Source: a bacterium (GTDB taxonomy: Bacteria; UBP6; JAFGXH01). From it: a DNA stretch of 34,934 bases. Location: assembly GCA_016936735.1 (NCBI GenBank), contig JAFGXH010000176.1, positions 1-34,934 of the forward strand, written 5' to 3'. This document shows, piece after piece, positions 21,678 through 32,842 of the stretch (within the stretch, counting starts at the first letter, position 1; each line of letters starts with the position of its first letter). The position numbers were made by a program, and so were the translations under genes. The notes under the pieces were generated by a model. It did no database searches, was not told where the DNA came from, and worked only from the letters and a program-made list of their open reading frames with translations.

Positions 21678-22253
21678 TTAAAGAGATAATCCTAAATCAA
21701 AAGCCTTAAGATTCATTTGAATGGTTTTTGATGGAACAGATAACTCTATTGCTTTATGAAATGACTCTATTGATATGGATTCTATTTTTTTTGCAATAAC
21801 ACCAAGAAGAATAGTATTAAAAACACGAACATCTCCAAGTTTTAAAGCCTCCTCTGTTGAGTTAACAAATTTATACTCAATCTCCTTTAGATAAGACTCA
21901 ACTGTTGATCTCTCTGGATATGTTTTTCCTGTATAATTTAGTGAAGTTGGCCTAATTTCATAATCATTAATTAATAAAAATCCATCAGATTTTAGATAAT
22001 CTATCCATCTTAATGTTTCAGATTTTTCAAATGAAAGTATTATATCTGCTGTTTTTTGCTCAACTGTTGGAGAGTAAACTTTCTCACCAAATCTAACAAA
22101 ACTTACAACAGAACCTCCTCTTTGAGCCATTCCATGAACTTCAGACTGTTTTACATCAAAACCACTATTTAAACAGGCTGTTGCAAGAATTGAGCTTGCT
22201 TTTATTATTCCTTGACCACCAATTCCAGCAAACAATATAGATGTTGTTTTCAT
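21678..22253 (-). CDS. iorB: Indolepyruvate:ferredoxin oxidoreductase beta subunit (IorB-like)
   Basis: SILFAGIGGQGIIKASSILA, SEVHGMAQRGGSVVSFVRFG. Translationally coupled to iorA (TAATG overlap at 22253). Confidence 0.92.
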   Translation of the reverse strand: MKTTSILFAGIGGQGIIKASSILATACLNSGFDVKQSEVHGMAQRGGSVVSFVRFGEKVYSPTVEQKTADIILSFEKSETLRWIDYLKSDGFLLINDYEIRPTSLNYTGKTYPERSTVESYLKEIEYKFVNSTEEALKLGDVRVFNTILLGVIAKKIESISIESFHKAIELSVPSKTIQMNLKAFDLGLSL

Positions 22254-24028
22254 TACGCCTCCTTCTCAATTTTATGAATAGCCTGAACTTTTGGTGGACA
22301 AACTTGAGCACACATTCCACAACCAATACAATAAACTGGATCTATTTTAGATTTTCCTGACTCACCCTTTGATATTGCAGGACAACCTAAACGTAGACAG
22401 GCACCACAAGCAATACATTTTGATTCATCTATTTCAAATGGATATTTTTTAGCCCTTTTAACCTCTTCTGTTAGGGCACATGGTTGCGATGTTATTAAAA
22501 CAGAAACTCCATCAAACTCTCTTGCCTCTCTTAAAGCATCAGATGTCTCTTTTAAGTTATAATTATTAACCCTTTTTACCCATTTTACACCTATTGCTTT
22601 TACAAGAGCCTCTAAATCAATTTGAGAGGTATTATTTCCCTGGAGAGTCAATCCTGTTGTTGGGTTTTGTTGATTTCCTGTCATTGCAGTTATCCTATTA
22701 TCTAAAATAACAACAGTTCCTTTTCTATTATTATAAACCATGTCAATAAGACTTGTAATTCCAGAGTGTATAAATGTTGAATCTCCAATAACAGCAACAC
22801 TATTATTTCCAGTTAACATTGGATTTTGCATCAATCCACTTAATCCTGAAATGCTTGCTCCCATACAGATGCAGGTATCCATTGCATTCCAAGGTGCTAA
22901 TGCTGCAAGTGTGTAACAACCAATATCTCCAGCTACACTTAATCTCTGTTTTTTTATTGCATCAAAAATACCAATATGAGGACAACCAGGGCATAATACA
23001 GGTGGTCTTTCAAGTATATGATTGCTATTTATGGTTTTTTTCTCTACTTTTTCGTTTAATAGATACTCTTTTAATACCTCTGGAAGCATCTCTCCACAAT
23101 ATGGAAGGATATTTTTTCCAATAATCTCATTAGATAAACCAAGTTGTCTTACATATCCCTCAATAAAATCATCCCCCTCCTCTATTATAATGATTTTTTT
23201 CACTTTTTTTGAAAACTCTTTAACTTTTTCCATTGGGAATGGAAAAGAGAATCCCAGTTTTAGATATGTTGCATTAGGAAAAACCTCTTTTGCATAATTA
23301 TATGAGACGCCACTTGTTATAACTCCTATCTCTGAATCTCCATCCTCAATAACATTCCATTCAGAACTCTCTGCAAGCTCCTTTAGCTTTTTCAGTCTCT
23401 CCTCAACAACAACATGAAGTTTTCTAGCATTAGATGGCATCAATACATATTTTTCAAAATTTTTCTTATATGGATATATTGGTATCTCCTCTCTTTCACT
23501 AAGTGTTACAACCCCTTTTCCATGAGATACTCTTGTTGTTGTTCTAAGTATTACTGGTGAATCAAATTGATGTGATATTTTTAAAGCCCATTTTGTCATT
23601 CTAAGAGCCTCATCACTATTAACAGGTTCAAGTAAAGGGAGTTTTGCAGCTCTTGCAAAATGTCTATTATCCTGCTCATTTTGAGATGAATGCATTCCAG
23701 AGTCATCAGCAGTTATAATTAATAGAGCCCCTGTTACTCCTGCATATGCAAGAGAGAATAGTGGATCTGCTGCAACATTTAATCCAACATGTTTTTGTGC
23801 ACATAGAGATATTGCACCACCAATTGCTGCACCACCAGCAACCTCCATTGCAACTTTTTCATTTGGTGCCCACTCAGCTTTTACCTCTTTATATAATGCT
23901 AAAGACTCTAGTATCTCTGTACTTGGGGTTCCAGGATATGCTGAAGCAAAATGAACTCCAGCCTCATAGGCTCCTCTTGCAATAGCCTCATTTCCAGATA
24001 AAATTGCTTTTCCAATCACTTTGACCAT
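22253..24028 (-). CDS. iorA: Indolepyruvate:ferredoxin oxidoreductase alpha subunit (IorA-like)
   Basis: AYPGTPSTEILESL, RPPVLCPGCPHIGIFDAI, TPP-binding VIGDSTFIHSGITSLIDMVYN, C-terminal ferredoxin motifs CIACGACLRLGCP and CIGCGMCAQVCPP. Confidence 0.95.
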   Translation of the reverse strand: MVKVIGKAILSGNEAIARGAYEAGVHFASAYPGTPSTEILESLALYKEVKAEWAPNEKVAMEVAGGAAIGGAISLCAQKHVGLNVAADPLFSLAYAGVTGALLIITADDSGMHSSQNEQDNRHFARAAKLPLLEPVNSDEALRMTKWALKISHQFDSPVILRTTTRVSHGKGVVTLSEREEIPIYPYKKNFEKYVLMPSNARKLHVVVEERLKKLKELAESSEWNVIEDGDSEIGVITSGVSYNYAKEVFPNATYLKLGFSFPFPMEKVKEFSKKVKKIIIIEEGDDFIEGYVRQLGLSNEIIGKNILPYCGEMLPEVLKEYLLNEKVEKKTINSNHILERPPVLCPGCPHIGIFDAIKKQRLSVAGDIGCYTLAALAPWNAMDTCICMGASISGLSGLMQNPMLTGNNSVAVIGDSTFIHSGITSLIDMVYNNRKGTVVILDNRITAMTGNQQNPTTGLTLQGNNTSQIDLEALVKAIGVKWVKRVNNYNLKETSDALREAREFDGVSVLITSQPCALTEEVKRAKKYPFEIDESKCIACGACLRLGCPAISKGESGKSKIDPVYCIGCGMCAQVCPPKVQAIHKIEKEA

Positions 24029-24185: not shown

Positions 24186-24214
24186 TTGACTTAATACTGA
24201 TAATAACATAAAAT
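24186..24214 (+). promoter_or_regulatory. Candidate sigma70-like promoter TTGACT-N17-TAAAAT for the AllH-like operon
   Basis: TTGACT at 24186-24191, TAAAAT at 24209-24214, 17-nt spacer, just upstream of ATG 24227. Confidence 0.6.
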
Positions 24215-24226
24215 TTTATTTTTGAG

Positions 24227-25114
24227 ATGAGAGTTATGGATATTTATGAAATTGGAGATAGATTACCTTTAGGGATTTTTTCGCTTCACTCCAAATTTAA
24301 TAAATATTGTAATTTTGTTAATGAGTATGGAGAGTTAATAACTCTTACCACAGAGAAAAGTGGTCCTAATACAATTACTGTTTCTGAAAGAGTTTTAAAA
24401 AGTAGCACTTTTATCAAAGTAACATCTGAAATTTTAGAGATAAATTTCGATAAATATAAAAAAAGATCAATACCTATCTATTGTTCAAAAATAGAGTCTC
24501 AAAATAACTTAAAAAAAACAGACCTTATTGAAGATAACTGGAGTTCAACTATTCTTGAACTAAAAAAAATCTATAACTACTTAAAAATAAGGGTTGGAGA
24601 TAAAACACTATTATCTGCAATTGAGCTTGGAAAAAACAGTGTTGATAAAATATTAATACAAGAGAGAAAATATAGATTTTCTGAGCTTATGTTTAAAGAG
24701 ATTGAGAGTGGTGTTGAACTATTTTTAGATAAAAATTTTGAACAAGCAATCTCAAAAATAAAAGGACATGGTTTTGGATTAACACCATCTGGTGATGATT
24801 GGCTTGCTGGTGCATTAACAGGAATCTCTTTTTATGAGGAGTATTTTAATAAAAATTTAAAAAATATTAAAGAGTCTATTTTTAATTTATCAATTGGAAA
24901 AAATTTAATCTCTAATAGTTTTATATATTACGCAAAAGAGAGCTCTTTTTTTTATGATGTTAAACAGTTTTTAACATCAATACTGAAATCCAATTTTGAT
25001 TCACTTTATCAGTTGGGAATTAATGTATTAGAGCATGGAGCAACATCTGGAGGAGATTTTCTATCTGGATTTTTTTCAGTTATATTAAAAAAAGATTTTT
25101 TTGATTTTTCCTAG
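24227..25114 (+). CDS. DUF2877 / AllH-like protein (putative carbamoyltransferase component)
   Basis: Signature GHGFGLTPSGDDWLAGALTG...SNSFIYYAKES...HGATSGGDFLSGFF; adjacent to FdrA-like and DUF1116-like genes. Confidence 0.85.
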   Translation: MRVMDIYEIGDRLPLGIFSLHSKFNKYCNFVNEYGELITLTTEKSGPNTITVSERVLKSSTFIKVTSEILEINFDKYKKRSIPIYCSKIESQNNLKKTDLIEDNWSSTILELKKIYNYLKIRVGDKTLLSAIELGKNSVDKILIQERKYRFSELMFKEIESGVELFLDKNFEQAISKIKGHGFGLTPSGDDWLAGALTGISFYEEYFNKNLKNIKESIFNLSIGKNLISNSFIYYAKESSFFYDVKQFLTSILKSNFDSLYQLGINVLEHGATSGGDFLSGFFSVILKKDFFDFS

Positions 25115-25142
25115 TTTATCCACTTATATAAAGGATATTTAT

Positions 25143-26666
25143 ATGGTTGTAAAGGGTATTATTAAAAGCAAAGTCTATTTCGACTCAGTGAGTTTAATGA
25201 GAATTGGAAGTGAATTAAGCTCAATGCCTGGTGTTGAGGATGTTGCAATGGTTATGGGAACAGATGAAAATAAATCTATTCTTAAAGTATCAGAGATGTT
25301 ACTATCTGAGTTTAGTGATAGTAATGGTAATGATTTATTGATTGGAGTTAAAGCTGATAGTGAAGAGATTGTTGAAAAAGTATTAGAAAAAATGGAATCT
25401 CTTCTAGAGGCTCTTCAAAAAGGGGATAGTAGTACAACTACATTTGTACCAAAAAGTATTGATGGTGCACTTAAAGTACTTCCTGAAGCAAATTTAGCAA
25501 TGATATCTATTGCAGGTAAATATGCTGCAAATGAGGCTAGAAAAGCATTAAATAACAACCTTCATGTTATGATTTTTTCAGATAATGTTTCGATAGAGGA
25601 TGAGCTATCTCTTAAAAAACTTGGAAAAGAGAAGGGGCTTCTTGTTATGGGTCCTGATTGTGGAACAGCAATAATAAATGGTGTTCCATTAGCTTTTGCA
25701 AATAGAGTAAGAAAAGGGGATATTGGAGTTGTTGGAGCATCTGGAACAGGTATGCAGGAGGTTACATCTTTAATCTCTAATTTTGGAGGTGGAGTTTCAC
25801 AAGCAATTGGAACTGGTGGAAGGGATGTTAAAAAAGAGATTGGTGGTGTAATGTTTTTAGAGGGATTAAAGGCTCTTAAAAATGATAAAAACACAAAAAT
25901 AATCACTCTTGTTTCCAAACCACCTCACCAAGATGTTATTGACAAAATTGCATTAGAGTTAAAAGGGTGTGAAAAACCTGTTGTTGCTCTATTTTTAGGT
26001 GCGAATAAAGAGGAATTATCAGATTTTCCAGCAGAGATTTGTACCACATTAGAGGAGACTGCTCAAAAATCTGTAGAGCTTTCACTTCAACTATCTTTAG
26101 CAAGAGAGTGTGAATTTTCAAATGAGGATGTATTAAGAGAGAGAGGTAAAAAATCCTCAAATCAAAAATATATAAGAGCTCTTTTTAGTGGTGGAACATT
26201 TTGTGATGAGACAGGAATTCTATTAAGAGACTCTTTAACAGATCTTTATGGTAATCATTCAGGAAAATCTATTCTACCATTAGAAAATCTTTTAAAATCC
26301 CAAAAACATACTCTTATTGATTTGGGAGAGGATGATTTTACTGTTGGAAGACCTCATCCAATGATTGATTTTTCATTAAGAAATAAACGAATTATTCAGG
26401 AGGCCTCTGATCCAGAGTGTTCTGTTATAATTCTTGATGTTGTTTTAGGTTATGGTGCTCACCCTGCTCCAGATGCAGAGTTAGTTCCAATAATAACTAA
26501 AGCATTATCAATAAATCCTAATTTAACAGTTATCTCTTATGTTGTTGGAACAGATGCAGATCCACAAAATAGAAAACAGGTTATCTCTGCTCTTCAAAAT
26601 GCAGGATCACTTATTGTTTCATCGAATAGAGCAGCTGCCCTATTTGCACTTGAGATTGTTAAATAG
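25143..26666 (+). CDS. FdrA / AllF-like acyl-CoA synthetase-family protein
   Basis: Succinyl-CoA synthetase alpha-like motifs (IGVVGASGTGMQEVTSLISNFGGGVSQAIGTGGRDV), MGPDCGTAIINGVPLAFANRV, DVVLGYGAHPAPDAELVP. Start placed at ATG 25143 (MVVKGIIKSKVYFDSVSLMRI). Confidence 0.9.
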   Translation: MVVKGIIKSKVYFDSVSLMRIGSELSSMPGVEDVAMVMGTDENKSILKVSEMLLSEFSDSNGNDLLIGVKADSEEIVEKVLEKMESLLEALQKGDSSTTTFVPKSIDGALKVLPEANLAMISIAGKYAANEARKALNNNLHVMIFSDNVSIEDELSLKKLGKEKGLLVMGPDCGTAIINGVPLAFANRVRKGDIGVVGASGTGMQEVTSLISNFGGGVSQAIGTGGRDVKKEIGGVMFLEGLKALKNDKNTKIITLVSKPPHQDVIDKIALELKGCEKPVVALFLGANKEELSDFPAEICTTLEETAQKSVELSLQLSLARECEFSNEDVLRERGKKSSNQKYIRALFSGGTFCDETGILLRDSLTDLYGNHSGKSILPLENLLKSQKHTLIDLGEDDFTVGRPHPMIDFSLRNKRIIQEASDPECSVIILDVVLGYGAHPAPDAELVPIITKALSINPNLTVISYVVGTDADPQNRKQVISALQNAGSLIVSSNRAAALFALEIVK

Positions 26667-26695
26667 ATTTTTACATTTTTTGTTATGTTTTCTTA

Positions 26696-26721
26696 TAACA
26701 GGGCACTAAAGTATCCTGTTA
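26696..26721. repeat. Inverted repeat between the FdrA-like and AllG-like genes
   Basis: TAACAGG (26696-26702) / CCTGTTA (26715-26721), 12-nt loop, followed by ATTTTAAG. Confidence 0.4.
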
Positions 26722-26764
26722 ATTTTAAGTTATATTTTGATTATATATATTTTATGGAGAAAAT

Positions 26765-28171
26765 ATGAGTATAGATAATCTCTTTTCAGGCTCCATTCAA
26801 GTGGTAAATTTGGGGCTTAGCTCATTTCTTGATGCTTTAAAAGAGAGTAACACTCCACATGTTCAAGTTGATTGGAAACCTGGTCTTGATGTAGATCCAT
26901 CTCTAATTTCAAAATTTGATAAAAATAGAGATATAGTGGATAAAGCTAATAAAGAGGCAACAGATATAATTGCAAGTGGTTCACCTTTCTTAACAGGAAT
27001 GGCTCAGGCTTTTGAGGTTATTCCTGGAATGCATAAAAAACTTATTCTTCATGCAGGACCACCAATAACTTGGGATAGAATGTGTGGGCCAATGAAAGGG
27101 GCTATAATTGGTGCATTAATTTATGAAAATCTTGCTTCAAATCCAGAAGAGGCTGAAAAATTAGCATCTTCTGGTGAAATAGAGTACTCTCCATGTCATG
27201 AACACAACTCTGTTGGACCAATGGCAGGAATTATATCATACTCAATGCCTGTTTTTATTGTAAAAAATAAAACATTTGGCAATGAGACATATTGTACACA
27301 AAATGAGGGTCTTGGAAAAGTTTTACGGTATGGTGCCTTTAGTGAAGAGGTTGTTAATCGACTTCGTTGGATGGAGACAACACTATACCCAACACTTAAA
27401 AAAGCTGTTGAGTTTTTGGGGGAGATTGATTTAAAAGCTCTTATTTCACAAGCATTACATATGGGTGATGAGGTTCATAATAGAAATAGAGCTGGAACAT
27501 CCCTATTTTATAGAGTTATTGCACCTGCAATTGTTCGCACATCAGAAAATAGAGAGGATGCAGCTAAAGCTCTTGAGTTTATTCATGGAAATGACCATTT
27601 CTTTTTAAATCTCTCAATGCCTGCTTCAAAAGCTATTTTAGATGCAGCTAGAGGTATTAAAAATAGCTCTATTGTTGTTGTTATGGCTAGAAATGGAACA
27701 GATTTTGGTATTCAAATCGCAGGTGATAGTAAAAAATGGTATACAGGAAAAGCATTAGTTCCTGATGCTCTATTCTTTCCAGGTTTTACTAAAAATGATG
27801 CAAATCCAGATATTGGTGATAGTGCAATAACTGAGACTGCTGGACTTGGTGGCTTTGCAATTGCTGCCTCTCCTGCAATTGTTCAATTTGTTGGAGGAAA
27901 TGCATCTGATGCTTTAAATTATACAATGGAGATGTATGAAATTACAGCATCTGAAAGTAGATATTTTCAAATTCCATCTCTTAATTTTAGAGGAACACCA
28001 ACTGCAATTGATATTAGAAAAGTTGTTGAGAAAAATATTACCCCTTTTATTGATACAGGGGTTGCACACAAAGAGCCTGGTGTTGGACAGGTTGGTGCTG
28101 GTGTTTTACGTGCTCCATCAGAGCCTTTTCAAAAAGGATATGTTGGTTTTGCATCTTTATTGGATGAGTAG
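26765..28171 (+). CDS. DUF1116 / AllG (YlbE)-like protein
   Basis: MCGPMKGAIIGALIYE, EYSPCHEHNSVGPMAGIIS, MGDEVHNRNRAGTSLFYR, VVVMARNGTDFGIQIAG; genomic context with the FdrA-like gene. Confidence 0.9.
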   Translation: MSIDNLFSGSIQVVNLGLSSFLDALKESNTPHVQVDWKPGLDVDPSLISKFDKNRDIVDKANKEATDIIASGSPFLTGMAQAFEVIPGMHKKLILHAGPPITWDRMCGPMKGAIIGALIYENLASNPEEAEKLASSGEIEYSPCHEHNSVGPMAGIISYSMPVFIVKNKTFGNETYCTQNEGLGKVLRYGAFSEEVVNRLRWMETTLYPTLKKAVEFLGEIDLKALISQALHMGDEVHNRNRAGTSLFYRVIAPAIVRTSENREDAAKALEFIHGNDHFFLNLSMPASKAILDAARGIKNSSIVVVMARNGTDFGIQIAGDSKKWYTGKALVPDALFFPGFTKNDANPDIGDSAITETAGLGGFAIAASPAIVQFVGGNASDALNYTMEMYEITASESRYFQIPSLNFRGTPTAIDIRKVVEKNITPFIDTGVAHKEPGVGQVGAGVLRAPSEPFQKGYVGFASLLDE

Positions 28172-28203
28172 TTTTTTTCTATTTTTTAATGGAGGTTTTA
28201 TAT

Positions 28204-29025
28204 ATGGATTCAAAAACTTTTTTTGATTTTATGGGTTCTTTAAAAATGTATGATTTAACACAACGTTTAAGCATTCATACTCCACCTTGGCCAAGTTATG
28301 TTCCACTTCAAATTCAGTATTTTAAAAGAATTGCTGGGGCTCATATGGGACAAGGGGCTAATGGTCAAATCATAACAACAAGTAATCATGTTGGAACACA
28401 TATTGATGGAGAGATCCATTTTCATGCAAGTGGTCGTTCTATTGGTCAAGTTCCAATGGAAGAGTGGGTAGGAGCTGGTGTTGTTGTTGATATCTCTGAT
28501 GAAGTTGGTGATTATGATCTTTATACACCAGAGATGATTATGAAAAAAGTTGAAGTAAAAGAGGGTGATATTCTCATTATTAATACTGGATACCATCGTT
28601 ATGCTTGGGATCAACCAGAATCTGATGAAGTACGATATTTTGTAAAACATCCTGGTCCAGATCCAAGTTTTCATGAATGGGCATTACAGATGAAAATTAA
28701 ATGGATTGGAGTTGATTGTGGAAGTGCAGACCATCCAATGAATACAATTATTCGTAATTGGCATCCAAAACCATTTAAAGAGGCTGAGGCAAAATTAATT
28801 GAAAAATATGGAAAAGCTTGGGATGAGATGTTTCCACCAGAGGAGTATTATCAGGTTATGCATCTAAAACTTTTCCCTAAAAAACTTGTTCATGCAGAGA
28901 ATATTGGTGGTGATATTGATAAAATAAAAAATAAACGAGTTTGGATTGGTCTTTTCCCTTTAAGAGGAATTGAGTTAGAGTCCTCAATGTGTCGTATTAT
29001 TGCATTTGAACCACCAACTGAATAA
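28204..29025 (+). CDS. Cyclase-family metal-dependent hydrolase (kynurenine formamidase / isatin hydrolase superfamily)
   Basis: Metal-binding motif HVGTHIDGEIHFH (HxGTHxDxxxH); SD GGAGG before ATG 28204. Confidence 0.85.
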   Translation: MDSKTFFDFMGSLKMYDLTQRLSIHTPPWPSYVPLQIQYFKRIAGAHMGQGANGQIITTSNHVGTHIDGEIHFHASGRSIGQVPMEEWVGAGVVVDISDEVGDYDLYTPEMIMKKVEVKEGDILIINTGYHRYAWDQPESDEVRYFVKHPGPDPSFHEWALQMKIKWIGVDCGSADHPMNTIIRNWHPKPFKEAEAKLIEKYGKAWDEMFPPEEYYQVMHLKLFPKKLVHAENIGGDIDKIKNKRVWIGLFPLRGIELESSMCRIIAFEPPTE

Positions 29026-29068
29026 ATAAAAATAGAGTGGTTCTAATATTTTTAACTTGAGAATGTTG

Positions 29069-29111
29069 ATTGGGTTAATCTATTGTATATATAACAATAG
29101 ATTAACCCAAT
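29069..29111. repeat. Perfect 18-bp inverted repeat, 7-nt loop, between the cyclase gene and the Mo-hydroxylase genes
   Basis: ATTGGGTTAATCTATTGT (29069-29086) - ATATATA - ACAATAGATTAACCCAAT (29094-29111). Confidence 0.95.
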
Positions 29112-29149
29112 TTTAACAAAAATCTCTTAACTAATGGAGAAAATAGAGA

Positions 29150-30010
29150 ATGGTTGTTGCACATGATTTTCTATACCAAAAACCATCAACTCTTTTAGAT
29201 GCTCTCAAATTAAGAGCACAATATGGAGAGAAATGCTCATTATTAGCAGGTGGAACAGATTTGGTTGTTAATATAAAAGAGAGACGTATCTCTCCTGATA
29301 TTGTAATAGATATAAAAGGGATTCCAGAGTTTTCTATTCTTGAAGAGAGAGATGGCTCTATTTTTATTGGTTCTGCTATCACATTTACAGAATTAATAGA
29401 GTCTCCACTTATTAAGAGTAGAGTTCCAATAATAGCTGAGTCTGCACATACAGTAGCCTCTGTTGGAGTTAGAAATAGAGCCACTCTTGTAGGAAATATC
29501 TGTTCTGCTGTTCCATCATTGGACTCAGCACCAGCTCTTCTTGTTTATAAAACAGATGTTGTTGTGGAGAGTGTTGATGGAAAAAGAATTATTCCTATTG
29601 ATAAATGGTTTGTTGCTCCTAAAAAAACAGCTCTTCAAAATAATGAGATTGTTTTAGGAGTTTTAGTGGAGATTCCAAATTCAGAAAATGGAACAGCATA
29701 TATGAAACTTGGTCGTTACTCTGGTGAGGATTTAGCTCAAGCAGGTGTTGGAATAATGATTTCAAAAAATTTAGAGTATAAAATTGCATTTTGTGCAGTT
29801 GGGCCAGTTCCTAGAAGAGCATTAAAAGTTGAGGCTTTTTTAAATGGTAAAGAGTTTTCATCAATAACAAATGAGCTTTCAGAAATTATTCAAAGTGAAA
29901 TCTCCCCAATAACTGATATTCGTGCATCAAAAGAGTATCGTAGACATATGGTTGATGTTCTGGTTGAGAGAGGGATTAAATTAGCTCTTTCAAGATTGCA
30001 GGGGGAATAA
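29150..30010 (+). CDS. Molybdenum hydroxylase FAD-binding subunit (XdhB/CoxM-like)
   Basis: SLLAGGTDLVVNIKERR, TVASVGVRNRATLVGNICSAVPSLDSAPALLV, CO-dehydrogenase-flavoprotein-like C-terminus. Confidence 0.93.
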   Translation: MVVAHDFLYQKPSTLLDALKLRAQYGEKCSLLAGGTDLVVNIKERRISPDIVIDIKGIPEFSILEERDGSIFIGSAITFTELIESPLIKSRVPIIAESAHTVASVGVRNRATLVGNICSAVPSLDSAPALLVYKTDVVVESVDGKRIIPIDKWFVAPKKTALQNNEIVLGVLVEIPNSENGTAYMKLGRYSGEDLAQAGVGIMISKNLEYKIAFCAVGPVPRRALKVEAFLNGKEFSSITNELSEIIQSEISPITDIRASKEYRRHMVDVLVERGIKLALSRLQGE

Positions 30011-30504
30011 TGAATAAAATAACATTTATAATAAATGGTGAAAAACGCTCTATATATGTTGAACCTAATGATGTTTTATTAGATGTATTAAGAGATAAAT
30101 TAGGATTAAAAAGTCCAAAATGTGGCTGTGAAAGAGGTGATTGTGGTGCCTGTTCAGTTCTATTGAATGGAAAAAGTGTTAGAAGTTGTTTGGTTTTTGC
30201 AATTGAGGTTGATGGTTGTGAAATTGAAACTGTTGAAGGTATCTCTCAAAATGGATTAAGTGTTGTTCAAGAGGCATTTATTGAGATGAACTCTTTTCAA
30301 TGTGGTTTTTGTGCTCCAGGAGTTGTAATTGCAACAACAGAGCTACTAAGAAAAAATAGTACTCCAACAAAAGAGGAGATTAAAGAGGCATTAGCTGGAA
30401 ATCTATGTCGTTGTACAGGATATACCCCTATATTAGAGGCAGTTGAGAAAATCTCTCACCACAACAAACATAACTCAGATAATACAGGAGGTACAAATGA
30501 GTAA
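30010..30504 (+). CDS. Molybdenum hydroxylase [2Fe-2S] subunit (XdhC/CoxS-like)
   Basis: CGCERGDCGACSVLLNGKSVRSC and QCGFCAPGVV...GNLCRCTGYTPI. TAATG coupling to the FAD subunit. Confidence 0.97.
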   Translation: MNKITFIINGEKRSIYVEPNDVLLDVLRDKLGLKSPKCGCERGDCGACSVLLNGKSVRSCLVFAIEVDGCEIETVEGISQNGLSVVQEAFIEMNSFQCGFCAPGVVIATTELLRKNSTPTKEEIKEALAGNLCRCTGYTPILEAVEKISHHNKHNSDNTGGTNE

Positions 30505-32842
30505 ATATAGATTTGTTGGAAAGGGTGTTGAGAGAATTGATGGTAGAGAGAAAGTGTCTGGTGCAGCAATCTATACAGATGATTTAGAGTTTGGTCCAGA
30601 TCTACTTTATGCAGAGATTGTTGAAAGTAGTGAAGCACATGCAAAAATAGTATCAATAGATGTAACTGAAGCAGAAAAAGTGGAGGGAGTTGTTCAGATT
30701 TTTACAGGAAAAGATTTTCCATATAAATTTGGTCTATATATGAAAGATAGATATATTTTTGCTCAAGATATTGTTCGTTTTATTGGGGAGCAGGTTGCAG
30801 CTGTTGTTGCAAGAGATCCAAAGGCGGCAAAAAAAGCAGCAGAGTTAATTAAAATAGAGTATGAATTATTAACTCCTGTTTTTTCTCAAATGGATGCAAT
30901 ATCTGAAAATCCAGTTCTGCTTCATCCAGATTTGGGAGAGTATCCTCATGTGCCTTGGTTTTTTCCAAAAGAGAATACAAATATTGCTCATTGGAGAAAA
31001 ACAAAAAGGGGTGATTTAGATGGTGGATTTAAAGATGCTGATCTTATTCTTGAGGAGACATTTGAGGTTCCAAGATATGCTCATTGTGCTATTGAGACAC
31101 ATGTTGTTATATCAAAATATGACTATTCAGGAAGATTAACTGTTTGGGCAAGTTCTCAATCACCATATACACAAAGACATCTTTTTGCTGAGGCATTAGC
31201 ACCACTTGGAATAAAACATAAAGATGTTCGTGTTATTGCTCCACATGTTGGAGGTGGTTTTGGAGGTAAAGCAGGAGTAACGATGGAGATTCTTGCTGCT
31301 GCTCTTGCAACAAAAATGAAGGGACATCCTGTTAAAATAAGATGGAGTAGAGAGCAGGAGTTTTATAACACATATCAAAGATTGGGAGTTGTTGCAAAAC
31401 TTAAACTTGGTCTTAAAAAAGATGGTTCAATAACAGCATTACAACATCAACTCTATTGGGATGCTGGAGCATATGTTGAGTATGGGGCAAATGTTGTTAA
31501 TGCAGTTGGATTATCAGCTACTGGTCCATATAAAATTCCAGCTATATCAATAGATTCACTCTGTATATACACAAATTTACCACCAGGTGGTGCATATAGA
31601 GGATTTGGATATTCTGAGTTTCTTTTTGGTTTAGAGTCTTTAATGGATCAGGCTGCTGAAAAATTGGGAATAGATGCTGTTGAGTTTAGATTAAAAAATG
31701 CAATCTCAAAGGGTGATACTCTTGCTTATGGTGCACACATGAATCCAAATGGGTTAAAACAGGCAATAACTGAGGTTGCAAAAGAGATTGAGTGGGGAAA
31801 AGAGGTTGTTTCAATAGATCCTGAAAAAGTTTTATGTAAAGGTTTTTCACTACTTTGGAAAGCACCTGCAATGCCACCAAATGCTTCATCTTCTGCATTT
31901 ATTAAATTTAATGAGGATGGGAGTTTAAATATTTTAGTATCTGGAATGGATATTGGGCAGGGTTATTTAACAGTTATGGCTCAAATTGCTGCAGAGATTT
32001 TATCTGTTCCACCCAATAAAATACGTGTTGAAAATCCAGATACAGATAGGAATCCATATGAGTGGCAAACTGTTGCATCTCATGTAACTTGGTCTTGTGG
32101 TAATGCTGTTAAAAAGGCTGCTATTCATATTAGAGAACAGATATTTGATCTTATGGAGAGGGCATTTAAAGTTTCAAAAGATAATTTTTATCTTGAGGAT
32201 GATGGAGTAAAAAGTCATTTAGATCCATCATTTTATTTAGCATTTAAAGATTTTGTTGTTTTTGGTATTCCAATGGATGATGGTAGTTTTAGAGGTGGAC
32301 CAATTACAGGTGTTGGTACATTTTTACCAGAGTTCTCATCAGCAAAAAGTGATCCAGAAACGGGACAGGGAGGACATCCAAATGTTCATTATACTGTTGG
32401 GGCAGCAGCTGTTTTACTTGAAGTTGACAAAAAAAGTGGTCAAATTAAAGTTTTAAAAGCTGTTGAGGCAATTGATGCTGGTCAAGCGATAAATCCAGAT
32501 CTTGTTAAAGGACAAATAACAGGTGGATTACTTCAGGGATTAGCAACTGTTTTATATGAGGATATGCGTTTTAATGATAAAGGACGTCTTTTGAATCCAA
32601 ATTTTACAGATTATAAAATTCCAACAACAAAAGATATTCCAGAGGAGATTGTTCCTATTATTATTGAAGTTCCTCAACCAGATGGTCCATTTGGTGCTCG
32701 CGGGGTTGGAGAACAAACAATGATTCCTGTTGCACCAATGATTGCAAATGCACTTTATAATGGTCTTGGAATTCGAATTAAATCTATGCCTATAACTGCA
32801 GAAAAAGTTGCAATGGCTATTCTTGAAAAAGAGAAAAATTAG
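30497..32842 (+). CDS. Molybdenum hydroxylase molybdopterin-binding subunit (XdhA/CoxL superfamily; substrate unknown)
   Basis: GVERIDGREKVSGAAIYTDD, APHVGGGFGGKAGV, PPGGAYRGFGYSEF, GPFGARGVGEQTM with catalytic Glu. Start placed at ATG 30497 with SD AGGAGG, overlapping the Fe-S subunit stop by 8 nt. Confidence 0.95.
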   Translation: MSKYRFVGKGVERIDGREKVSGAAIYTDDLEFGPDLLYAEIVESSEAHAKIVSIDVTEAEKVEGVVQIFTGKDFPYKFGLYMKDRYIFAQDIVRFIGEQVAAVVARDPKAAKKAAELIKIEYELLTPVFSQMDAISENPVLLHPDLGEYPHVPWFFPKENTNIAHWRKTKRGDLDGGFKDADLILEETFEVPRYAHCAIETHVVISKYDYSGRLTVWASSQSPYTQRHLFAEALAPLGIKHKDVRVIAPHVGGGFGGKAGVTMEILAAALATKMKGHPVKIRWSREQEFYNTYQRLGVVAKLKLGLKKDGSITALQHQLYWDAGAYVEYGANVVNAVGLSATGPYKIPAISIDSLCIYTNLPPGGAYRGFGYSEFLFGLESLMDQAAEKLGIDAVEFRLKNAISKGDTLAYGAHMNPNGLKQAITEVAKEIEWGKEVVSIDPEKVLCKGFSLLWKAPAMPPNASSSAFIKFNEDGSLNILVSGMDIGQGYLTVMAQIAAEILSVPPNKIRVENPDTDRNPYEWQTVASHVTWSCGNAVKKAAIHIREQIFDLMERAFKVSKDNFYLEDDGVKSHLDPSFYLAFKDFVVFGIPMDDGSFRGGPITGVGTFLPEFSSAKSDPETGQGGHPNVHYTVGAAAVLLEVDKKSGQIKVLKAVEAIDAGQAINPDLVKGQITGGLLQGLATVLYEDMRFNDKGRLLNPNFTDYKIPTTKDIPEEIVPIIIEVPQPDGPFGARGVGEQTMIPVAPMIANALYNGLGIRIKSMPITAEKVAMAILEKEKN

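Follow-up and report, generated by a model that had tools for sequence, protein, structure and literature searches.

A conserved seven-gene cluster forms a predicted operon for anaerobic uracil degradation

Results

Gene content of the cluster

Seven adjacent genes lie on the forward strand in a 34,934-nucleotide stretch of bacterial DNA (contig JAFGXH010000176.1, the whole of which is referred to here as the window). They encode homologues of AllH, AllF and AllG, a cyclase-family hydrolase (PF04199, here called CYC) and the FAD, 2x[2Fe-2S] and Mo subunits of a xanthine-oxidase-family hydroxylase, as the initial annotation had stated (Table 1). The gaps between the genes are short (+25, 98, 29, 124, -1 and about -8 bp). 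The initial annotation also noted a promoter-like sequence before the first gene, this claim is weak because promoter-like sites are not enriched in the region (33 were found, compared with 41+/-5.4 in shuffled sequences).

Table 1. Genes and features of the predicted operon, with coordinates in the window.
Coordinates	Strand	Feature	Length	Basis of assignment
24186..24214	+	Promoter-like site upstream of the first gene		Matches 10 of 12 positions; not above chance in number
24227..25114	+	AllH-like subunit (PF11392, DUF2877), fast-evolving	295 aa	Pfam 63.3 bits; 21-36% identity to cluster homologues outside its genus
25140..26666	+	AllF/FdrA-like subunit (CoA_binding and Ligase_CoA folds)	508 aa from ATG 25140 (longer TTG frame from 25101)	NCBIfam FdrA subfamily model 529 bits, cut-off 433; 43% to E. 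coli YahF, 40% to E. coli AllF
26765..28171	+	AllG-like subunit (DUF1116, PF06545), proposed ureidomalonate carbamoyltransferase core together with AllF and AllH	468 aa	PF06545 323 bits; placed in a tree among CYC-linked AllG, apart from E. coli AllG and YahG
28201..29025	+	Cyclase-family (PF04199) metal hydrolase (CYC), proposed barbiturate-opening amidohydrolase, most conserved member of the cluster	274 aa	PF04199 119 bits; HVGTHID at residue 63 (HxGTHxD metal motif); predicted fold matches isatin hydrolase and kynurenine formamidase; 74-87% identity across phyla
29150..30010	+	FAD subunit of Mo hydroxylase		FAD_binding_5 148 bits, CO_deh_flav_C 55 bits
30010..30504	+	2x[2Fe-2S] subunit of Mo hydroxylase		Fer2_2 104 bits, Fer2 28.5 bits; ten Cys
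30497..32842	+	Molybdopterin subunit of xanthine-oxidase-family hydroxylase, proposed uracil 6-hydroxylase (dehydrogenase)		MoCoBD_1 262, MoCoBD_2 221, Ald_Xan_dh_C 105 bits; best PDB match 4-hydroxybenzoyl-CoA reductase alpha, 343 bits; GGGFGGKAG, YRGFG and GVGE motifs

Several specific enzyme identities were rejected because the proteins score below the equivalog cut-offs. CYC scores 53 bits to the kynurenine formamidase model (TIGR03035), for which the cut-off is 223; the same genome contains another, 201-aa cyclase-family gene. The Mo hydroxylase scores 502 bits against a cut-off of 780 for XdhA, 198 against 310 for XdhB and 177 against 217 for XdhC. The score to 4-hydroxybenzoyl-CoA reductase (TIGR03194) is 503 bits against a cut-off of 995.

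Conservation and co-occurrence

The gene order is conserved in MAGs labelled Cloacimonadota, Bdellovibrionota, Lentisphaerota, Elusimicrobiota, Spirochaetota, Bacteroidota and Verrucomicrobiota. In a sample of 386 genomes, 34 of 39 with AllG also have CYC, compared with 1 of 347 without AllG (p=3e-42). CYC is also associated with carbamate kinase (27/32 against 116/354, p=1e-8). The co-occurrence of AllG and CYC is far beyond chance. These values are not corrected for phylogeny.

Associated genes in related clusters

Related clusters (numbered here with the prefix L) carry additional genes which narrow down the likely substrate. NCS2 nucleobase permease genes are found beside or inside the clusters L044, L079, L083, L090, L092 and L108. 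All six permeases carry the UraA Glu290-type glutamate, where XanQ and UacT have Gln. The permeases of L079 and L090 group with UraA/RutG at 100/99 support. The other four form their own NCS2 clade of uncertain specificity, and the two of these that were scanned score closer to the xanthine than to the uracil permease model. The window's own genome, which is 93% complete, has no NCS2 permease, so uptake there is unexplained.

Cytosine deaminase and uridine phosphorylase flank CYC in L095, where they are on one strand with gaps of 18 and 75 bp (uridine phosphorylase 293 bits, cut-off 280), and also in L163. Cytosine deaminase (518 bits, cut-off 483) lies next to a CYC and a CoA-transferase in L168. 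Uridine phosphorylase was seen in only one family (f97).

Other clusters contain an amidase and a small-dicarboxylate CoA-transferase. The amidase of L012 has malonamidase E2 (PDB 1OCK) as its best PDB relative (184 bits, against 157 for the next family), malonamidase had been predicted from the chemistry before this search. Equivalents of the catalytic residues Lys62, Ser131 and Ser155, and of Arg158, are invariant in nine cluster amidases. The amidase of L002, however, scores slightly better to a Thermus 'probable amidase' (151) than to malonamidase E2 (146). The CoA-transferase scores best to CoA:oxalate, mesaconate and glutarate CoA-transferases. Na+ pump decarboxylase genes beside L012 look like methylmalonyl- or malonyl-CoA decarboxylase, but these were seen only once.

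The window's own genome has the amidase (500 bits) and the CoA-transferase (640 bits, 56-58% identity to most operon copies) on other contigs. It also has carbamate kinase (405 bits, above the curated cut-off) and XdhC (110 bits) elsewhere.

Many clusters carry a GNAT-like gene, with or without a thiolase and DUF35 pair, whose role is unexplained. The GNAT-like protein has no Pfam or NCBIfam hit and no PDB sequence match. Its predicted structure (pLDDT 74) matches GNAT acetyltransferases only weakly, and the idea that it is a malonyl-CoA decarboxylase is not supported.

We expected the reductive enzyme PreA to be absent from genomes with the cluster, which would have supported an oxidative route. 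A PreA-like dihydropyrimidine dehydrogenase is present over the cut-off in 14 of 34 cluster genomes, so the pathway is not the only possible pyrimidine route in them; the remaining 20, including the window's own genome, lack PreA over the cut-off. A search for an AtzD-type barbiturase (PF09663) gave nothing in the 34 cluster genomes, but the control was also silent, so this proves little.

Discussion

A proposed pathway for uracil

The initial annotation proposed that the substrate is hydroxylated, ring-opened and phosphorolysed to carbamoyl phosphate by a route other than that of allantoin. Our analyses support this logic: the arrangement is conserved in many phyla, the genome has a carbamate kinase, and no characterised pathway with these genes was found in the papers searched, which did not include most subscription papers and preprints. 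The initial annotation left the substrate open, the genes associated with the clusters now point to uracil.

We therefore hypothesise that the operon encodes an oxygen-independent, energy-conserving oxidative pathway for uracil, and probably for cytosine and uridine after deamination or phosphorolysis. The three-subunit Mo hydroxylase would oxidise uracil at C6 to barbiturate, and CYC would open the ring to ureidomalonate, an acylurea. AllF, AllG and AllH would phosphorolyse ureidomalonate to carbamoyl phosphate and malonamate, this reaction is one CH2 longer than the known E. coli reaction (oxalurate to oxamate). A separately encoded carbamate kinase would make ATP from carbamoyl phosphate. 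The malonamidase-like amidase and a class III CoA-transferase would turn malonamate into malonate and malonyl-CoA, hence acetyl-CoA. The oxidative pyrimidine pathway is known to end in malonate (PMC7662398), and AllFGH is known to phosphorolyse an acylurea (PMC11326118). The genes are conserved together across phyla, whereas every catalytic step and the order of the steps are inferred, and the Mo subunit does not itself single out a pyrimidine enzyme. We consider this explanation more likely than not.

Comparison with known systems

The oxidative pyrimidine pathway of aerobic bacteria uses uracil/thymine dehydrogenase, barbiturase and ureidomalonase (Soong et al. 2001, 2002, cited in PMC7662398). 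The proposed pathway would share its intermediates barbiturate, ureidomalonate and malonate, and a hydroxylating dehydrogenase as the first step. It differs in that the proposed ring opener is a PF04199 cyclase instead of the AtzD-type barbiturase, and in that ureidomalonate would be phosphorolysed to carbamoyl phosphate and malonamate instead of hydrolysed to urea and malonate. The organisms that carry the cluster also appear, by inference, to be anaerobic.

The E. coli oxamic transcarbamylase AllFGH with AllK (PMC11326118, PMC9843812) shares with the proposed system the three subunit families, a coupled carbamate kinase and, presumably, acylurea phosphorolysis. The AllF and AllG proteins are only 40-44% identical, however, and the gene order in the window is H-F-G. 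In a tree E. coli AllG falls with sequences of family f141, and the window's AllG is in a separate clade. The genes in the window are also linked to a cyclase and a Mo hydroxylase. No allantoin genes (allantoinase, allantoate amidohydrolase or ureidoglycolate dehydrogenase) were recognised among the ten gene products scanned around the operon.

The E. coli yahEFG-yahI-yahJ locus, whose function is unknown, has the gene order AllH-AllF-AllG as in the window, with a carbamate kinase-like gene and an amidohydrolase nearby. It has no cyclase or Mo hydroxylase, and YahG forms its own clade. The reductive uric acid pathway (YgeW, YqeA; PMC12507026) also includes a Mo hydroxylase homologue, amidohydrolases, carbamoyl phosphate and a carbamate kinase used to save energy, but with a different carbamoyltransferase family (YgeW) and a different substrate.

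Alternative explanations

Other explanations are possible, but each appears unlikely. The Mo hydroxylase and CYC could make oxalurate through parabanate or a hydantoin, with AllFGH performing its known oxalurate reaction and the amidase and CoA-transferase handling oxamate and oxalate. The activity of E. coli AllFGH on oxalurate (PMC11326118), the best NCBIfam model of the CoA-transferase (CoA:oxalate CoA-transferase) and a dihydropyrimidinase/hydantoinase upstream in L004 agree with this route. The uracil-type permeases, cytosine deaminase and uridine phosphorylase do not fit, the amidase of L012 is nearest to malonamidase, and no oxalyl-CoA decarboxylase was recognised among the cluster genes examined. 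About as improbable is a non-nucleobase N-heterocycle or cyclic imide, with the nucleobase genes of some clusters being secondary. The family of CYC includes isatin hydrolase and kynurenine formamidase and the window's genome lacks an NCS2 permease, but the linkage to nucleobase permeases and pyrimidine salvage genes is repeated.

Two further routes seem less likely still. In a purine route the Mo hydroxylase would make xanthine, CYC would open its pyrimidine ring to 4-ureido-5-imidazolecarboxylate and AllFGH would remove the ureido group as carbamoyl phosphate. The permease clade of uncertain specificity, the membership of the Mo hydroxylase in the xanthine oxidase family and a PurU-like gene in L163 are consistent with this. 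However, no formiminoglycine or glycine-pathway genes were seen in clusters, the amide-to-acid and CoA-transferase genes are left unexplained, the permeases keep the pyrimidine-type Glu and not the purine-type Gln, and cytosine deaminase and uridine phosphorylase do not fit. In a variant of the reductive pyrimidine route uracil would be reduced elsewhere in the genome by PreA, CYC would open dihydrouracil and AllFGH would phosphorolyse N-carbamoyl-beta-alanine, leaving another role for the Mo hydroxylase. PreA-like proteins in some cluster genomes and the dihydropyrimidinase in L004 are in its favour. Against it, most cluster genomes lack PreA over the cut-off, the Mo hydroxylase is a standing member of the cluster, beta-alanine would need no amidase and N-carbamoyl-beta-alanine is not an acylurea.

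Implications

Four bacterial routes of pyrimidine degradation (oxidative, reductive, Rut and URC) are listed in a 2025 paper (PMC12507026). More tentatively, the cluster may represent a fifth kind, found in roughly 8% of the sampled genomes and spread across phyla, in which anaerobes ferment uracil and gain ATP through carbamoyl phosphate. AllFGH would then be mainly a pyrimidine (ureidomalonate) enzyme family and the E. coli allantoin branch a side line. Two variants would add new enzymology, an aldehyde:ferredoxin-oxidoreductase-like protein standing in for the Mo hydroxylase (L095 and L163), and the GNAT-like protein, with or without thiolase and DUF35, standing in for the CoA-transferase and amidase.

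An oxygen-independent oxidative route that captures the ureido carbon as carbamoyl phosphate would explain how many uncultured anaerobes can live on nucleic-acid bases. It would give functions to three poorly understood families in these genomes (DUF2877, FdrA and DUF1116) and to a cyclase subfamily, and would correct the annotation of many such loci as allantoin or oxalurate degradation.

Gene content of the operon

Gene calling and profile searches confirm the seven genes proposed in the initial annotation. AllH, AllF and AllG are recognised by PF11392, the FdrA subfamily model and PF06545 respectively, and the fourth protein, a cyclase-family hydrolase (CYC), is recognised by PF04199. The last three genes encode the FAD, 2x[2Fe-2S] and molybdopterin subunits of a xanthine-oxidase-family hydroxylase (MoM, MoS and MoL). 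None of these proteins reaches the equivalog cut-offs for xanthine dehydrogenase, 4-hydroxybenzoyl-CoA reductase or arylformamidase. The genes are closely spaced, and the flanking genes lie on the - strand, with indolepyruvate:ferredoxin oxidoreductase IorAB upstream and a FadL-type porin downstream. The initial annotation also noted a good promoter-like sequence before the first gene, however the promoter-like site upstream of AllH is not exceptional for the region.

Features of the window, of its genome (contigs labelled C) and of related loci (labelled L)
Location	Strand	Feature
window 21678-24028	-	Divergent indolepyruvate:ferredoxin oxidoreductase IorBA, next to the operon
window 24227-32842	+	Seven-gene operon
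window 28201-29025	+	CYC
C281:15048-16280		Homologue of the cluster amidases
C153:876-2060		Homologue of the cluster CoA-transferases
C122		Carbamate kinase
C135		XdhC maturation protein
L095:10478-12370, L163:2532-4445		Aldehyde:ferredoxin-oxidoreductase-like gene
L158:1024-1953 and 12334; L164:14341		Ornithine carbamoyltransferase next to CYC (L158) and carbamate kinase about 12-14 kb downstream on the same strand (L158, L164)
L004:3446-4840		Dihydropyrimidinase and a PTR2-type transporter, directly upstream of AllH
L012:1429-5070		Carboxyltransferase, OAD gamma, biotin carrier and Na+-pump decarboxylase beta genes, directly upstream of AllH
L081:1592, L095:7904-8983, L096:1520, L102:8045, L111:956		Conserved 360-aa protein between AllF and AllG
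L005, L008, L009, L011, L016, L020, L024, L044, L045, L078, L079, L084, L086, L089, L092, L103, L159, L163		GNAT-like protein of about 245 aa

Conservation and co-occurrence

A single-sequence scan of genome contigs with CYC returned 24 loci. Most of these carry AllH-AllF-AllG-CYC-MoM-MoS-MoL in the same order, in MAGs labelled Cloacimonadota, Bdellovibrionota, Lentisphaerota, Elusimicrobiota, Spirochaetota, Bacteroidota and Verrucomicrobiota; in four Elusimicrobia loci the two blocks are swapped. CYC is 74-87% identical across these phyla, while AllH is 21-36%, MoM 44-54% and AllF 42-55% identical to the window, so CYC is an unusually constrained enzyme. The divergent IorBA genes are also found in the near relative L001/L043, but were not seen in other loci. 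The L001 contig (DYRY01000088.1) is titled Anaeromyxobacter dehalogenans and is 89-95% identical in AllF, AllG and CYC to the AT-rich window; the organism name is doubtful. In two families the conserved 360-aa protein is found within the cluster; the L095 copy has no NCBIfam match.

The co-occurrence of these genes was examined in a sample of 386 genomes, 28 of them from the window's own phylum and the rest from elsewhere in the domain. AllG is present in 39 genomes and CYC in 35; 34 have both, and only one has CYC without AllG (Fisher p=3e-42; 3e-39 without the host phylum). Carbamate kinase is present in 27 of 32 strict CYC genomes and in 116 of 354 others (p=1e-8). These tests ignore shared ancestry. 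The contexts of 36 AllG loci were read, and CYC plus a Mo hydroxylase is the commonest company of AllFGH in this sample. Ornithine carbamoyltransferase, which lies next to CYC in L158, and carbamate kinase, which lies about 12-14 kb downstream on the same strand in L158 and L164, are both users of carbamoyl phosphate.

Genes pointing to the substrate

Three kinds of genes in related clusters point to uracil. NCS2 nucleobase permeases lie next to or inside the clusters of L044, L079, L083, L090, L092 and L108. When aligned with E. coli UraA, RutG, XanQ and UacT, all six have Glu at UraA position 290 and Tyr at 288, as in the pyrimidine permeases, while XanQ and UacT have Gln and Phe. The L079 and L090 permeases group with UraA and RutG at 100/99 support; the other four form their own clade of uncertain specificity.

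Cytosine deaminase and uridine phosphorylase, which both deliver uracil, are also associated with these clusters. In L095, AllH, AllF, AllG, an aldehyde:ferredoxin-oxidoreductase-like gene, cytosine deaminase, CYC and uridine phosphorylase are present on one strand. L163, of the same family, has the last four of these plus a PurU-like gene, a GNAT-like gene and a thiolase. No Mo hydroxylase subunit was detected in these two clusters, and the aldehyde:ferredoxin-oxidoreductase-like protein is a possible replacement of the first enzyme. In L168, cytosine deaminase lies beside a more distant CYC and a CoA-transferase. The dihydropyrimidinase of L004, which counts for the oxalurate/parabanate and reductive-pyrimidine alternatives, scores 538 bits against a cut-off of 393 (TIGR02033).

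The downstream enzymes fit a malonate-type product. We predicted, before searching, that an amidase in these clusters should be a malonamidase, and the best solved relative of the L012 amidase is malonamidase E2, at 184 bits against 157 for the next family. The equivalents of Lys62, Ser131, Ser155 and Arg158 are invariant in nine cluster amidases. The L002 amidase, however, is a near tie between a Thermus amidase and malonamidase E2. The CoA-transferase scores best against CoA-transferases of small dicarboxylates. The genes upstream of AllH in L012 are candidates for a malonyl- or methylmalonyl-CoA decarboxylase, but were seen only once.

The genome of the window contains one full-length homologue of the amidase (500 bits; 41-47% identical to most operon amidases) and one of the CoA-transferase (640 bits; 56-58% identical to most operon copies). 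It also contains a carbamate kinase (405 bits, cut-off 358) and XdhC. It has no NCS2 permease, and no PreA at the threshold used.

Proposed pathway

The association of these genes is shown, and we infer each of the following reactions. In the best fit, uracil and water are converted to barbiturate by the Mo hydroxylase with release of two electrons, and barbiturate is hydrolysed to ureidomalonate by CYC. AllFGH then converts ureidomalonate and phosphate to carbamoyl phosphate and malonamate. Carbamoyl phosphate and ADP yield ATP, NH3 and CO2 through carbamate kinase, while malonamate is converted to malonate and then malonyl-CoA by the amidase and the CoA-transferase. The last step, malonyl-CoA to acetyl-CoA, was not located in the window's genome. 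The AllFGH step copies the known oxalurate to oxamate reaction of E. coli AllFGH (PMC11326118) with one more CH2, and the intermediates copy the known oxidative pathway, which ends in malonate (PMC7662398). The predicted fold of CYC (pLDDT 78, with a poorly predicted stretch at 25-62) matches isatin hydrolase, kynurenine formamidase and other PF04199 hydrolases, which are generally enzymes that cleave amides.

ALTERNATIVES

Oxalurate/parabanate, purine, reductive-pyrimidine and other-heterocycle readings were considered as alternatives. The uracil reading explains the permeases, cytosine deaminase, uridine phosphorylase, the malonamidase-like amidase and the CoA-transferase together, whereas each of the alternatives leaves some of these unexplained. 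Some facts do not fit neatly with uracil: the lack of an NCS2 permease in the window's genome, the presence of PreA in 14 of 34 cluster genomes, and a module of GNAT-like protein, thiolase and DUF35 protein. The GNAT-like protein has no Pfam or NCBIfam match, and often occurs with a thiolase and a DUF35 protein. This module never co-occurs with the CoA-transferase in the 48 loci compared (0 overlaps of 18 and 13, Fisher p=6e-4, not corrected for phylogeny) and may replace it; the GNAT-like protein may be an alternative way to make a CoA ester from malonamate or malonate.

Relationship to known pathways

AllG of the window belongs neither with E. coli AllG nor with YahG. Among the papers searched, none was found that describes these genes as a pyrimidine pathway. 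A 2025 paper lists only the oxidative, reductive, Rut and URC routes (PMC12507026), and work on nitrifiers reads AllFGH as oxalurate degradation. We estimate that the substrate is likely to be a pyrimidine base, and with moderate confidence we propose that the operon encodes the specific pathway from uracil, which would be a new variant of oxidative pyrimidine breakdown.
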